A stretch of DNA of 64,000 nt, taken from Frigoriflavimonas asaccharolytica. Its GTDB lineage: Bacteria; Bacteroidota; Bacteroidia; Flavobacteriales; Weeksellaceae. Location: positions 124,001 to 188,000 of the forward strand of contig NZ_JABSNO010000001.1 of the NCBI RefSeq assembly GCF_013294015.1, written 5' to 3'. Below, piece after piece: positions 53,551 to 58,181 of this stretch; positions within the stretch are counted from its first letter, which is position 1, and each line of letters starts with the position of its first letter. The translations under genes and the position numbers were made by a program. The notes below the pieces were generated by a model, which did no database searches, was not told the origin of the DNA, and saw only the letters and a list, made by a program, of their open reading frames with translations.

Positions 53551-54858
53551 TTACAAATCTAAATTTACTTCTAATTTTTGTGCCAAGAGTTGAGAAACTT
53601 TTAATTTTAAAGATTCTATTTTAATATTTTGCATTGCATCATTTGCAAAAGCATACAAAAGCATTGCTTCTGCTTCTTTTTTAGAAATTCCTCTTGCTCT
53701 TAAATAAAACAGCGCATCTTCATTTAATCTACCAACTGTACAACCGTGGGAACATTTCACATCGTCTGCAAAGATTTCCAGTTGTGGTTTGGTGTCAATT
53801 TTTGCGCCTTCATCTAGCAAAATATTATTATTTTGTTGATAAGCATTTGTTTTTTGCGCAATTTTTTCTACAAAAACTTTTCCGTTAAAAACTCCGTGAG
53901 AATTATCTTTATAAATTCCTTTATAGTTTTGATAACTTTCGCAATTAGGCGTTTTGTGGTGAACTGCAGTGTGATGATCTACCAATTGATTTTTAGAAAT
54001 CATGGTAATTCCATTCATGAAAGAATTGATATTTTCTCCATTGTGAATGAAATCTAGGTTGTTTCTCACCAATTTTCCGCCGAAAGAAAAAGTATTTACG
54101 GTTGCCAAACTATCTCTTTCTTGTTTCGCGAAAGTATGATCTACCATATAAGAAGTGTCGCTGTCATTTTGCAATTTGTGCCAATCTGCTTTCGCATTTT
54201 GATGTACAAAAATCTCTGTCACAGCATTTGTAAGCACAAAACCGGCATCCAAATTGTGATGTGATTCTATAATTTCTACTTGAGCGCCTTCTTCTGCTAT
54301 CAATAAATTTCTAATGTTATAAAAAGAGTTAGTTTGTTGATTATCAGAAATATAAAAGATATGAATTGGCTTTGGCAATACTTCATTTTTGCCAACTTTT
54401 AAGAAAAATCCTTCTTCAGCAAATGCTAAATTCAAATCTGTAAAAGCAAGATTATTATTGGCTAAAGTATTGAAATATTTTGCAATTATTTCTTGATGAG
54501 CATCATCTTTTAATGCATTTTTCATCGTCAGCATTTCTACATTTCTATTAGAAACTGTAGAAAAATCTTTACAGAAAAAACCATTTATAAAGACCATTCT
54601 ATCAGAATCTTCTTCACCAAGACTTAAATTTTGCAATTTTTCTTCCGTTAGTGAATTATTTTCCGAAGGAAAAAAGTTGTAATCTTTCTCCGTAATTTCT
54701 TTCAGATTGGTGTATTTGTACTCTTCATCTTTTTTTGTTGGAAAACCTTTATCTAAAAACTGATTGAGCGCAAATCCTCTTTTATCGTTTAAAAAAATTG
54801 AGTTTGCTTGACTAGAAAATTTTGAAAAACCTTCTTGAATATTATCTAATAATGCCAT
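53551..54858 (-). CDS. sufD: SufD, Fe-S cluster scaffold complex subunit
   Basis: The 435-residue protein is related to SufB. It has the beta-helix core (for example EGAQVEIIESHHNL and GKLVRNNLDFIHNGENINSF) and the C-terminal ADDVKCSHGCTVGRLNEDAL with the conserved Cys and His. With SufB and SufC it builds and hands over iron-sulfur clusters. It is the last gene of the suf operon, separated from sufC by a 265-base gap that holds the dispersed repeat. Confidence 0.95.
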   Translation of the reverse strand: MALLDNIQEGFSKFSSQANSIFLNDKRGFALNQFLDKGFPTKKDEEYKYTNLKEITEKDYNFFPSENNSLTEEKLQNLSLGEEDSDRMVFINGFFCKDFSTVSNRNVEMLTMKNALKDDAHQEIIAKYFNTLANNNLAFTDLNLAFAEEGFFLKVGKNEVLPKPIHIFYISDNQQTNSFYNIRNLLIAEEGAQVEIIESHHNLDAGFVLTNAVTEIFVHQNAKADWHKLQNDSDTSYMVDHTFAKQERDSLATVNTFSFGGKLVRNNLDFIHNGENINSFMNGITMISKNQLVDHHTAVHHKTPNCESYQNYKGIYKDNSHGVFNGKVFVEKIAQKTNAYQQNNNILLDEGAKIDTKPQLEIFADDVKCSHGCTVGRLNEDALFYLRARGISKKEAEAMLLYAFANDAMQNIKIESLKLKVSQLLAQKLEVNLDL

Positions 54859-55123: not shown

Positions 55124-55867
55124 TTAATTTAACAACCAATCGTAGCCTTTTTCTTCCAACTCCAACGCAAGAGATTTATCGCCAGTTTTGATGATTTTCC
55201 CATCTGCTAAAACGTGTACAAAATCTGGTTCAATATAGTCTAATAGCCTTTGATAGTGGGTAATAAGAAGAACTGCGTTTCCTTCGTTTTTAAAGGTATT
55301 TACGCCATCTGCAACAATTCTTAATGCATCAATATCCAATCCAGAATCTGTTTCGTCTAAAATTGCTAACTTTGGATTAAGCATCATCATTTGCAAAATT
55401 TCGTTGCGCTTTTTTTCGCCACCAGAAAATCCTTCGTTTAGCGAACGTGCAAGAAATTCTTTTTTAATTTCTAATTTTTCTGTTTTTTCACGTACCAAAG
55501 CGAGCATTTCTTTTGCGGGCATACTTTCTTGTCCGTTTGCTTTTCTGGTTTCGTTGATAGCAGCTTTCATAAAATTCATTACAGAAACTCCTGGAATTTC
55601 TATAGGATATTGGAAAGACATGAAAATACCTTTGTGCGCTCTATCTTCTGGTGAATCTTCGATGATGTTTTCGCCTTCAAAAAGGATTTCTCCTTCAGTG
55701 ATTTCGTAATCTTCTTTACCTGCAATCACAGAGGAAAGTGTGGATTTTCCGGCACCATTTGGTCCCATGATTGCGTGTATTTCGCCTGGTTTAATTTCCA
55801 GATTGATTCCTTTTAAAATTTCTACGCCTTCTTCAATTTGAGCGTGTAAGTTGTTTATTTTTAACAT
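55124..55867 (-). CDS. sufC: SufC ATPase
   Basis: The 247-residue ABC-type ATPase has Walker A IMGPNGAGKSTLSS (residues 34-47), signature LNEGFSGGEKKRNEI (about 143-157) and Walker B LAILDETDSGLDID. SufC is not a transporter; it drives SufB-SufD assembly. It is separated from sufB by a four-helix-bundle gene and from sufD by the dispersed repeat. Confidence 0.96.
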   Translation of the reverse strand: MLKINNLHAQIEEGVEILKGINLEIKPGEIHAIMGPNGAGKSTLSSVIAGKEDYEITEGEILFEGENIIEDSPEDRAHKGIFMSFQYPIEIPGVSVMNFMKAAINETRKANGQESMPAKEMLALVREKTEKLEIKKEFLARSLNEGFSGGEKKRNEILQMMMLNPKLAILDETDSGLDIDALRIVADGVNTFKNEGNAVLLITHYQRLLDYIEPDFVHVLADGKIIKTGDKSLALELEEKGYDWLLN

Positions 55868-55878
55868 AATTATGTTTA

Positions 55879-55893
55879 GTTTAATATAGTTTT
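55879..55893. repeat. 15-base inverted repeat, sufC side of the inserted gene
   Basis: GTTTAATATAGTTTT is the exact reverse complement of 56341-56355. The two bracket the four-helix-bundle gene, as ends of an inserted element would. No clear target duplication is visible. Confidence 0.65.
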
Positions 55894-55944
55894 ATTTGGT
55901 TTGAAGTTGTTTTATATTGTTCTAACCGTCTAAAATTTATAATC

Positions 55945-56334
55945 TTATTTAAATTTATTTCCTTTAAAATCTCTATTTTGAAGATAGGTCATGAAATTTT
56001 TAATTTTCACACTTAATATTTCACATCTCAACTTTAAATCTATGAATTCTTCCTCAGTGATAAAGTCATTATCAAAACACCGATAGATTTGTGATCTTAC
56101 TTCTCCTGCTGACCCTTTGGAAATAGATAAAAATTGTTTGAATTCTGCATTTCCATCCCTTTCAAATCCTTCAGCAATGTTATCCATAATAGATCCAACT
56201 GCTCCCTTTATTTGAGTTTTTAATTTATAATCTGTTTTAAAGATGTCACGGTCTGCAATTTTACAAATATCTTTGCTTAAAACTCGCGAAAGTTTCCAGA
56301 TTTCTAAATCTTCAAACCTAGTTACTGTTGCCAT
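55945..56334 (-). CDS. Four-helix-bundle protein (S23/IVP family) inserted in the suf operon
   Basis: The 129-residue all-helical protein has the family phrases FEDLEIWKLSRVLSKDIC, LKTQIKGAVGSIMDNIAEGF and FLSISKGSAGEVRSQIYRC. It belongs to the group first found in 23S rRNA intervening sequences, and the family is scattered through Bacteroidota genomes. Function is unknown; a nucleic-acid link is suggested by the family name only. It sits between sufB and sufC with AT-rich gaps and is bracketed by 15-base inverted repeats. It has no known link to Fe-S assembly. Confidence 0.9.
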   Translation of the reverse strand: MATVTRFEDLEIWKLSRVLSKDICKIADRDIFKTDYKLKTQIKGAVGSIMDNIAEGFERDGNAEFKQFLSISKGSAGEVRSQIYRCFDNDFITEEEFIDLKLRCEILSVKIKNFMTYLQNRDFKGNKFK

Positions 56335-56340
56335 TCTTTA

Positions 56341-56355
56341 AAAACTATATTAAAC
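56341..56355. repeat. 15-base inverted repeat, sufB side of the inserted gene
   Basis: AAAACTATATTAAAC is the reverse complement of 55879-55893. Next to it, AT-rich phrases with CAATTT and CAATTG recur, so it may be part of a longer degenerate repeat. Confidence 0.65.
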
Positions 56356-56384
56356 AATTTAAAACAAAATCAAACAATTGAATT

Positions 56385-57830
56385 TTACCCAACACTTCCC
56401 TCTAGCGAAATCTCTAACAATTTTTGTGCTTCTATTGCGAATTCCATTGGTAATTTATTCAAAACTTCTTTGCTGAAACCGTTTACAATGAGCGCGATGG
56501 CTTTTTCTGTAGAAATTCCTCTTTGGTTGCAATAGAAAATTTGATCTTCTCCAATTTTTGAAGTTGTTGCTTCATGCTCTAGTTGTGCTGTTGGATTTTT
56601 AATCTCTATATAAGGAAAGGTGTGTGCTCCACAATCATTCCCCATCAATAATGAATCACATTGAGAAAAATTTCTAGCATTGGTTGCAGATGGCATTACT
56701 TTTACCAATCCGCGGTAAGAATTGTTGGATTTTCCCGCAGAAACTCCTTTAGAAATAATAGTAGACTTGGTGTTTTTTCCGATGTGGATCATCTTGGTAC
56801 CTGTATCTGCATATTGGTGGTTGTTTGTAACCGCTATGCTGTAAAATTCCCCGATAGAATTATCACCTTTCAAGATACAGCTAGGATATTTCCACGTAAC
56901 GGCAGAACCTGTTTCTACTTGTGTCCAAGAAATTTTTGCATTTCTTTCGCACAAACCTCTTTTGGTTACAAAATTGAAAACACCTCCTTTTCCTTCGTCG
57001 TTTCCAGGATACCAATTTTGCACGGTAGAATATTTAATTTCTGCATCATCAAGAGCAATTAATTCCACCACTGCTGCATGCAATTGGTTTTCATCTCTTG
57101 CAGGTGCTGTGCAACCTTCGAGATATGAAACGTAGCTTCCTTCGTCTGCAATTACCAAAGTTCTTTCGAATTGACCCGTTCCAGATTGATTTATTCTAAA
57201 ATAGGTAGAGAGTTCCATTGGACATTTTACACCTTTTGGAATGTAGCAAAAACTTCCATCGGAAAATACGGCAGAATTTAATGCTGCATAATAATTATCT
57301 CCACGCGGAACCACTTTTCCCATGTATTTCTTCACCAAATCTGGATATTCTTTTATCGCTTCAGATATTGAACAGAATAAAATTCCTTTTTCCTTTAGAG
57401 TTTTTGAAAACGTGGTTTTAACAGAAACGGAATCTATTACGATATCTACGGCAACATTTGCAAGACGTTTTTGCTCTTCTATATTGATACCTAATTTTGC
57501 AAATGTGGCTAAAAGATCTGGATCTACCTCATCTAAACTTGCCAATTCTGGTTTTACTTTTGGCGCGGCATAATATTGTAGCGCTTGCAAATCTGGCTTT
57601 TCGTAAGAAATATTTGCCCAATCTGGCTCTACCATTTTTTCCCAAATGCGGTAAGATTCCAACCTCCAGTTTGTCATCCATTCTGGCTCTTCTTTCTTCG
57701 CAGAAATAGCGCGCACAATATCTTCATTCAATCCAGTAGGGAATTCTTCATATTCCATAATGGTTTCCCAACCGAATTCATATTTCTGGTTTTCTAAATC
57801 TACTCTTAAATCGTCTTCTGTATACTTCAT
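56385..57830 (-). CDS. sufB: SufB, Fe-S cluster scaffold
   Basis: The 481-residue protein is the main scaffold of the SufBCD complex. It has [40 protein letters not shown] and [20 protein letters not shown], the last carrying the cluster-site Cys/His region. It accepts sulfur from SufE/SufS. It is second in the operon after sufA, with a 21-base gap, and precedes the inserted four-helix-bundle gene. Confidence 0.97.
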
Positions 57831-57851: not shown

Positions 57852-58181
57852 CTAAAGAGAAAAACTTTCTCCACATCCGCAAGTTCTGCTTGCGTTTGGA
57901 TTATTAAAAACAAAGCCTTTCCCATTTAATCCTCCCGAATATTCTAAAATTGTTCCTGCTAAATAAAGAATTGATTTCTTTTCAATAATTACTTTAATGC
58001 CATTATCTTCAAAAATTTGATCTCCTTCTAATTTTTCATTATCAAATTTCAAAACGTATTCCAATCCAGAACAACCACCACTTTTCACTCCTACACGAAT
58101 ATAATCTTGTGTAGGATCAAAGCCATCTTCCGTCATTAATTCCATGGCTTTTTGCTTTGCGTAATCTGATACTTTTATCAT
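57852..58181 (-). CDS. sufA: SufA/IscA-type Fe-S carrier
   Basis: The 109-residue A-type carrier has the three conserved cysteines: Cys37 in KSGGCSGLEY, and Cys101 and Cys103 in SRTCGCGESF. It transfers clusters from SufBCD to target proteins. It is the first gene of the suf operon and has a consensus promoter just upstream. Confidence 0.95.
   Translation of the reverse strand: MIKVSDYAKQKAMELMTEDGFDPTQDYIRVGVKSGGCSGLEYVLKFDNEKLEGDQIFEDNGIKVIIEKKSILYLAGTILEYSGGLNGKGFVFNNPNASRTCGCGESFSL

Follow-up and report, generated by a model that had tools for sequence, protein, structure and literature searches.

A four-helix-bundle gene of the S23 family bracketed by inverted short-repeat arrays between sufB and sufC of a flavobacterium

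Introduction

What is a gene of the S23 family doing in the middle of a suf operon, and what are the inverted repeats that enclose it? The question is raised by a stretch of 64,000 nucleotides of Frigoriflavimonas asaccharolytica (contig NZ_JABSNO010000001.1, positions 124,001 to 188,000 of the forward strand), hereafter the window, whose numbering is used throughout. A sequence-only reading had described the gene and its flanking repeats as a 477-base unit resembling a non-autonomous mobile cassette. S23 proteins are presented as having no known function in the portion of PMC4990558 used here, and four helix bundle proteins appear as table entries in an excerpt of PMC5524665. In Coxiella, the 23S intervening sequence (IVS) that encodes an S23 protein is 428 nt long, is closed by a 28-bp terminal stem and is excised by RNase III; tandem GACAGAT heptamers, two or three depending on the strain, precede the S23 ORF (PMC4990558, same portion).

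Results

The suf locus and its S23 gene

The suf genes of the window are arranged on the minus strand in the order sufA-sufB-S23-sufC-sufD. The S23 gene (55945–56334, minus strand) encodes a protein of 129 aa belonging to the S23, or 23S rRNA-intervening-sequence-protein (four helix bundle), family, as judged from its matches to the PF05635 (E 5.3e-29) and TIGR02436 (E 2.9e-26) profiles. The claim that a gene of this family splits sufB from sufC was thus borne out. Upstream lie a sufA-like gene (57852–58181) and the host gene sufB (56385–57830), and downstream the host gene sufC (55124–55867) and sufD (53551–54858), all on the minus strand. The suf names come from reading of the translations and agree with the aligned relatives; sufB served as a query against relatives, and relatives of sufD and of the sufA-like gene were aligned. 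The start of each S23 ORF was taken as the last M before the domain.

PF05635 is the sole domain found in the window S23 protein by the domain search, which returned no nuclease domain. The only solved relative found was 2gsc, named XCC0516 (E 1e-7); a Xanthomonas S23 protein is described as a homopentamer in the portion of PMC4990558 used here. The host genome contains two PF05635 genes, the window copy and a second one (L001) located at the ugd/rmlB junction with GCTTTAG units. sufC was matched in all 148 genomes of the family that were searched, the host's included; the host was the sole member of its genus in the genome sets covered. In five genomes of genus g17 (G063, G093, G103, G119 and G124), an in-frame TAA was counted inside the sufC match. 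A search for known RNA families yielded a single match, within sufC and below threshold (a snoRNA, E 0.4), and this candidate was dismissed.

Inverted arms around the window S23 gene

The perfect 15-base inverted copies of the sequence-only reading are present at 55879–55893 (plus strand) and 56341–56355 (minus strand). They are 100% complementary, 447 nt apart and span 477 nt overall. With a first-order Markov null built on the real flanks (77 and 50 nt, 20,000 draws), the probability of a pair of at least 15 nt was 0.00095. Both copies are embedded in longer arms, each of which is an array of a degenerate 10-base unit, GTTTNANNTN. The upstream arm (56336–56375, minus strand) comprises four units, GTTTGATTTT GTTTTAAATT GTTTAATATA GTTTTTAAAG on the coding strand, and the downstream arm (55879–55928, plus strand), inverted with respect to the upstream one, comprises five, GTTTAATATA GTTTTATTTG GTTTGAAGTT GTTTTATATT GTTCTAACCG. 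Sequence, periodicity and pattern matches define these arms, with period-10 z values of 3.6 upstream and 3.9 downstream against plain shuffles. The 15-mers are the best-agreeing stretch of the longer arms and not termini by themselves.

A pattern of three GTTTNANNTN units with at most two mismatches has 35 matches in the host genome compared to 9 for the reversed pattern, the window matching by construction since the pattern was derived from it. As RNA the two arms pair weakly (-22.6 kcal/mol) because their units are A/T-rich. Folding of the whole unit gave -92.3 kcal/mol, compared to -87.2 ± 5.3 kcal/mol for shuffles.

Inverted arms are common around S23 genes

The upstream flank of each S23 gene was aligned with the reverse complement of its downstream flank, with a fixed cut-off score of 30 or more. 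From 115 ORFs, removal of 7 duplicates left 108, and removal of one with an N in its flank left 107 Flavobacteriales genes. These are a sample (32 loci, 59 more from the matches listed, and the suf loci) of best-scoring or hand-picked genes, many of them orthologues at one site, and are not independent. Inverted flanks had a median score of 34, compared to medians of 18 and 16 for direct and mismatched pairings. The same three comparisons on 61 mechanically called ORFs of the window, one of them the S23 gene, gave 19, 18 and 18. The cut-off was reached by inverted flanks in 69 of the 107 S23 genes compared to 0 of 39 control ORFs from suf loci, and by direct comparison in 10 of the 107; the remaining 38 fell below 30 in the inverted comparison. 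Inverted flanking repeats at other S23 copies, as the mobile-cassette reading would have them, are therefore common, and it is the expectation of the same 15-mers that failed: each copy has its own unit. A universal 15-mer, or one terminal repeat shared by all copies, was rejected since the units differ between copies.

The survey was extended to other bacteria with the best 80 of 382 contig matches, of which 75 loci had a usable S23 ORF and gave 84 ORFs, many of them from Bacteroidota. The medians were 27 (inverted), 16 (direct) and 15 (mismatched). Scores of at least 30 were found for 38 of these 84 ORFs in the inverted and 11 in the direct comparison, compared to a single one of the 61 control ORFs drawn from these loci; 46 lay below 30 inverted. 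According to the record titles, loci scoring above 30 belong to Planctomycetota (L229, L233), Proteobacteria (L287, L252, L234), Acidobacteria (L266), Atribacterota (L237), Omnitrophota (L240), Microgenomates/Roizmanbacteria (L283, L278) and many Bacteroidota. Among plasmids, which gave 15 matches, 7 of the 10 loci fetched have clear inverted arms with scores of 40–55 (L398, L399, L401, L402, L403, L405 and L407, the S23 frame of the last being a tblastn match with no annotated gene); L404 and L406 show no clear inverted arms, and L400, from a cyanobacterial plasmid, has direct rather than inverted arrays. No match was obtained by tblastn in 50,697 phage records, and the idea of phage cargo was abandoned.

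Both arms were significantly periodic in 56 of the 107 Flavobacteriales genes. Among arms with z > 3, the period was 7 in 77 arms, 8 in 30, 14 in 23, 6 in 7, and 12 and 15 in 2 each; a period of 10 was found in 2 arms, both those of the window. Four S23 genes (L179, L196, L201, L205) have 6-nt, AGGTTA-like arms that resemble telomere repeats, a rare case of a period divisible by three. The arms of the 107 genes also pair as RNA, with a median of -37.6 kcal/mol compared to -22.9 kcal/mol for mismatched arms, a value close to that of the window arms; for control ORFs (n = 60) the two values were -19.0 and -18.6 kcal/mol.

The search of 59 genomes found at least one PF05635 gene in 40, counting the host, and up to 13 per genome among the matches listed. 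Taking as neighbour the longest ORF within 800 nt of the S23 gene, the upstream neighbour is codirectional with it in 95 of 108 cases, opposite in 9 and unclear in 4; for the downstream neighbour the figures are 101, 6 and 1. Junctions that recur, named from translations, are sufA-B, sufB-C, sufC-D, fadB-fadA, fadA-acyl-CoA dehydrogenase, rmlB-rmlA, groES-groEL, carA-carB, a split metH and kdpA-kdpB. From these alignments, the inverted-arm architecture appears to be a general design of S23 genes, recurring at operon junctions in many bacteria. Since the family sits in unrelated operons and most relatives' sufB-sufC junctions lack the gene (see below), a role in Fe-S assembly is not supported; the sequence-only reading had described the family as having no known one.

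In two cyanobacterial plasmids an S23 gene lies between annotated cas6 and cas4 (L400, 1492–1851; L401, 1480–1848). The 23S rRNA IVP is named in a figure legend on CRISPR-associated proteins in the excerpt of PMC10910872, and such cas6-cas4 genes might explain the place of the family in that legend.

Close pairs of relatives' S23 genes with finite dS gave dN/dS values of 0.05–0.19, with one exception of 0.34 at very low divergence; many other pairs were saturated, and the window gene is without a close enough relative. These ratios indicate that the S23 protein is kept under purifying selection in the relatives.

Turnover at the sufB-sufC junction

Seventy suf loci were compared, 30 being the best sufC matches and 40 picked to span genera; 11 were without an adjacent sufB. 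An S23 gene is present in 12 of the 59 readable sufB-sufC junctions, the window's included, and 47 are without one, so that suf operons lacking the gene, which the mobile-cassette reading called for among relatives, proved to be the majority. Five of the 12 genes, including that of the window, are of the window type. The other seven are of a second type with GRTAATNT arms, and three of these are split.

Genus g22, with 14 genomes, displays five states of the junction. It is empty in L116, holds a window-type S23 gene in L111 and a second-type gene in L115, L117, L378, L379 and L381. Six junctions carry gene-less TTAGA arrays (L375, L376, L377, L380, L383, L384), and the chimera L382 fuses the gene-less array with the right end of a second-type S23. 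These states interleave on the sufB+sufC tree, where the gene-less L375 is sister to the S23-bearing L115 with a support of 0.97. The pattern could owe something to insertion, to loss or to interspecies recombination at the junction. On this comparison, turnover of the contents of the junction is well supported.

The repeat unit tends to follow the S23 clade

Most repeat units are 7 or 8 nt long. They vary from locus to locus, and on the S23 tree, from which proteins shorter than 85 aa were excluded, a change of protein clade tends to bring a change of unit. The window S23 protein groups with those of L105, L106, L107 and L111 (support 0.951), all located at sufB-sufC with GTTTAAA-like 7-mers. 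On nearby branches, GTTTAAA- or GTTCAAA-like units accompany S23 genes upstream of sufB (L099, L210) and at another site (L194). The clade of the window protein comprises sufB-sufC copies alone; this would fit an old insertion passed on by descent and lost in places, whose unit has lengthened to 10 nt. L001 clusters with the groES-groEL S23 proteins of relatives, which have the same kind of unit; support is 0.858 for the smallest clade (with L157 and L163) and 0.66 for the wider one.

For pairs of S23 genes at different sites across genomes, an arm similarity of at least 30 was found in 31 of 184 pairs with at least 50% protein identity and in 17 of 5,020 pairs below it. Where the two different-site copies belong to a single genome, shared arms were seen in 1 of 131 pairs. 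Over all different-site pairs, arm similarity and protein identity correlate with rho 0.068, the largest of 500 permutations being 0.088; the signal is confined to pairs above 50% identity, and some of the pairs counted as different-site have unassigned flanks. With so weak a rank correlation, recognition by the S23 protein of the repeat of its own clade is favoured, not proved.

Gene-less arrays

Arrays of S23-linked units also occur on their own. In the host genome, a pattern of three GCNNTAG units has 22 matches compared to 3 for the reversed pattern; this count and that of GTTTNANNTN include the arms of the host's two S23 genes. Compact, inverted, gene-less arrays lie between two ORFs at L298, L331 and L335, and L325 is an array in a single orientation. 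L335 is the groES-groEL junction of the host, with arrays on both sides and no gene. An S23 gene is present there in L019, L157 and L163, whose neighbouring genes are 81–94% identical to those of L335.

Across 29 genomes, GCNNTAG is abundant in G025 (62 matches, 0 for the reversed control), G033 (85, 0), G003 (48, 7) and G000 (22, 3), and less so in G031 (15, 6). All five carry the S23 clade that has GCNNTAG-type units. G002 is a clear exception, with 79 matches (control 0) and a single weak S23 match (E 1.6e-5) among the matches listed; arrays may outlive their S23 gene. G017 (15, 4) is a milder exception, G004 (14, 10) and G034 (11, 5) are near the control, and the remaining 20 genomes have at most 3 matches. 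Reversed-pattern controls reach 10–14 matches in single genomes.

AAGANNC gave 11–39 matches in the six carA-carB-clade genomes tested (controls 2–14) and none in 13 genomes. It is also present in G031 (53), G003 (26), G012 (23) and G000 (14), where no cognate S23 gene was found among those examined, a partial set in G003, G012 and G031. AAGANNC arrays occur in the host (e.g. C17:12836–12870 and C21:24111–24131), and neither host S23 gene has an AAGANNC unit.

Comparison with known systems

The comparison with insertions in 23S rRNA genes, put forward in the sequence-only reading, fits. Like the Coxiella burnetii 23S IVS as described in the portion of PMC4990558 used here, the window unit contains an S23 gene and places its sense strand in the host transcript; its ends are complementary, with the weak pairing as RNA given above; the two are of comparable size (428 nt in Coxiella, 477 in the window), and tandem short repeats, heptamers in Coxiella, precede the gene. 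Unlike the 23S IVS, the window element is within a protein-coding operon, sitting between sufB and sufC and not in an rRNA gene, and its repeats lie on both sides as inverted arrays. The unit of S23 elements, in further contrast, changes from clade to clade and is also found in copies without the gene. The Coxiella S23 gene is reported there to be decaying, unlike the relatives of the window gene with their signs of purifying selection. A 28-nt 23S motif, searched with up to four substitutions and no positive control, had no match in the loci assembled for the survey.

The system also resembles REPINs and RAYT genes as presented in the excerpt of PMC3116915: a gene lies beside its own repeat, gene-less inverted doublets lie between genes and several distinct repeat families coexist in one genome. 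Dispersed, inverted, gene-less doublets of an S23-linked repeat are present in the host at L298, L331 and L335. However, the S23 protein is a helical bundle and not a tyrosine transposase like RAYT, and its unit is a short tandem array, mostly of 7–8 nt, unlike the one palindromic REP of a REPIN.

The arrays are of the same kind as the intergenic heptamer direct repeats (TAACTGA) of MacGregor (2015, PMC4679880). In the portion of that article used here, these arrays are common to distant lineages, a mechanism of transfer is said not to be evident, and the S1, Csp and CsrA families are named as candidate binders; the terms 23S, intervening sequence, TIGR02436 and helix bundle are absent from its main text. 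TAACTGA arrays were found in 18 of 395 Bacteroidota genomes searched. Of at least 24 sites listed, 20 distinct ones were fetched, and an S23 gene directly adjoins two: in L358 the unit is on both sides, and in L348 clearly on one side only.

The Avd accessory protein of diversity-generating retroelements, a partner of reverse transcriptase, belongs to a related protein family (excerpt of PMC10053308). In contrast, no reverse transcriptase was detected in the host genome, whose assembly is 99.7% complete (PF00078, no match at E ≤ 0.001), and a reading of the element as one of these retroelements was rejected. None of the papers listed by searches of the PMC library connects S23 genes with inverted arrays of short repeats inside operons.

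Discussion

We regard the 477-base unit as probably an S23 element, that is, a small gene bracketed by inverted short-repeat arrays that match the clade of its protein. Such elements would be maintained as follows. The S23 protein would bind the repeat of its own clade, and the gene and its gene-less arrays would spread as a family, in the manner proposed for RAYT genes and REPINs. In the mRNA the two arms would pair, and RNase III may excise the insert, as shown for the S23-coding IVS of 23S rRNA. We propose that an insert removable from the mRNA would make insertion into essential operons tolerable. A repeat-binding S23 protein would in this way maintain, and occasionally spread, its own bracketed gene together with gene-less arrays.

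The arms and the gene could instead be a resident module for mRNA processing or regulation, which stays put and tunes the sufB/sufC ratio, its sequence being immobile. The codirectional placement of S23 genes, the pairing of arms as RNA across the set, the purifying selection and the S23 clades fixed across genera at groES-groEL, carA-carB, fadB-fadA and sufB-sufC are all consistent with such a module. We nevertheless consider it unlikely, since a single genus has unrelated S23 types, gene-less arrays or nothing at the same junction, the same clade and unit occur at different operons, and the host operons have unrelated functions. Less likely still is transport in trans, in which a Y1 (IS200/RAYT-type) transposase or some other host machinery would recognise the arms and move the unit as a passenger, the S23 protein taking no part. 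The host does have five PF01797 matches, three of them strong, and gene-less inverted arrays do resemble REPINs. Yet the unit tracks the S23 clade and not the genome, and the three strong matches, searched with about 1.5 kb on either side, lack both host array patterns, for which reason Y1 transposases were also discarded as partners of the arrays.

A classical transposon or MITE, ending in 15-bp repeats and flanked by a target duplication, would fit the perfect 15-nt inverted pair, but the unit contains no transposase, the 15-mers belong to longer arrays and other copies have other repeats; we give this reading very little credence. Chance, in the form of AT-rich slippage repeats beside an unrelated gene, is hardly credible: the flanks are indeed AT-rich and the stem of the window is weak, but the Markov null stands against it, and the survey contradicts it with 0/39 and 1/61 controls compared to 69/107 and 38/84 S23 genes. 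Returning to the S23 element, the mobile cassette of the sequence-only reading was right in direction. Turnover, the lack of the gene at most relatives' junctions and the inverted flanking repeats of other S23 copies argue for it. Its boundary, however, is an array and not a 15-bp terminal repeat, and the window copy clades with four sufB-sufC copies and so may be old and inherited. Restated, the claim is partly supported: the unit would be a member, perhaps an old one, of a large class of S23 elements whose inverted arrays go with the clade.

These comparisons suggest a link between the S23 family and mobile repeats of a widespread class. A bolder reading, which we put forward tentatively and think somewhat less probable than its opposite, is that S23 proteins are the master genes of bacteria-wide mobile repeats that lack a classical transposase. 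Each clade would recognise its own repeat of 6–10 nt and would place copies of itself and of palindromic arrays without the gene at operon junctions, where they would be tolerated through excision from the mRNA. If true, this reading would also account for how both 23S rRNA intervening sequences and the heptamer arrays seen in Bacteroidota, Beggiatoaceae and cyanobacteria arose. With array and cognate gene paired, the function of S23 proteins and the transfer of heptamer arrays become one question of binding. For annotators, the class of S23 elements would account for four helix bundle genes that interrupt suf, groES-groEL, carA-carB, fadB-fadA, metH, kdp and cas operons and have no part in those pathways.

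Other genes occupy the same junction in relatives. GxxExxY (TIGR04256) genes are found at 3 of the 59 readable sufB-sufC junctions (L086, L093, L102) and are multicopy, with 7 places in the host's own genome. Their flanks (n = 33) gave medians of 32 (inverted), 22 (direct) and 18 (mismatched), with 11 inverted and 7 direct scores above the 99th percentile of mismatched pairs. No GxxExxY locus among those tested has two significantly periodic arms, and some flanks contain 10-nt units, e.g. TTTCACGGAT or CACAGAGTTA. They are perhaps a second class with repeats of its own. Further small genes between sufB and sufC (L050, L053, L055, L056, L391; L039; L043, L098, L394) look by eye acetyltransferase-like, flavin-reductase-like and transthyretin-like.
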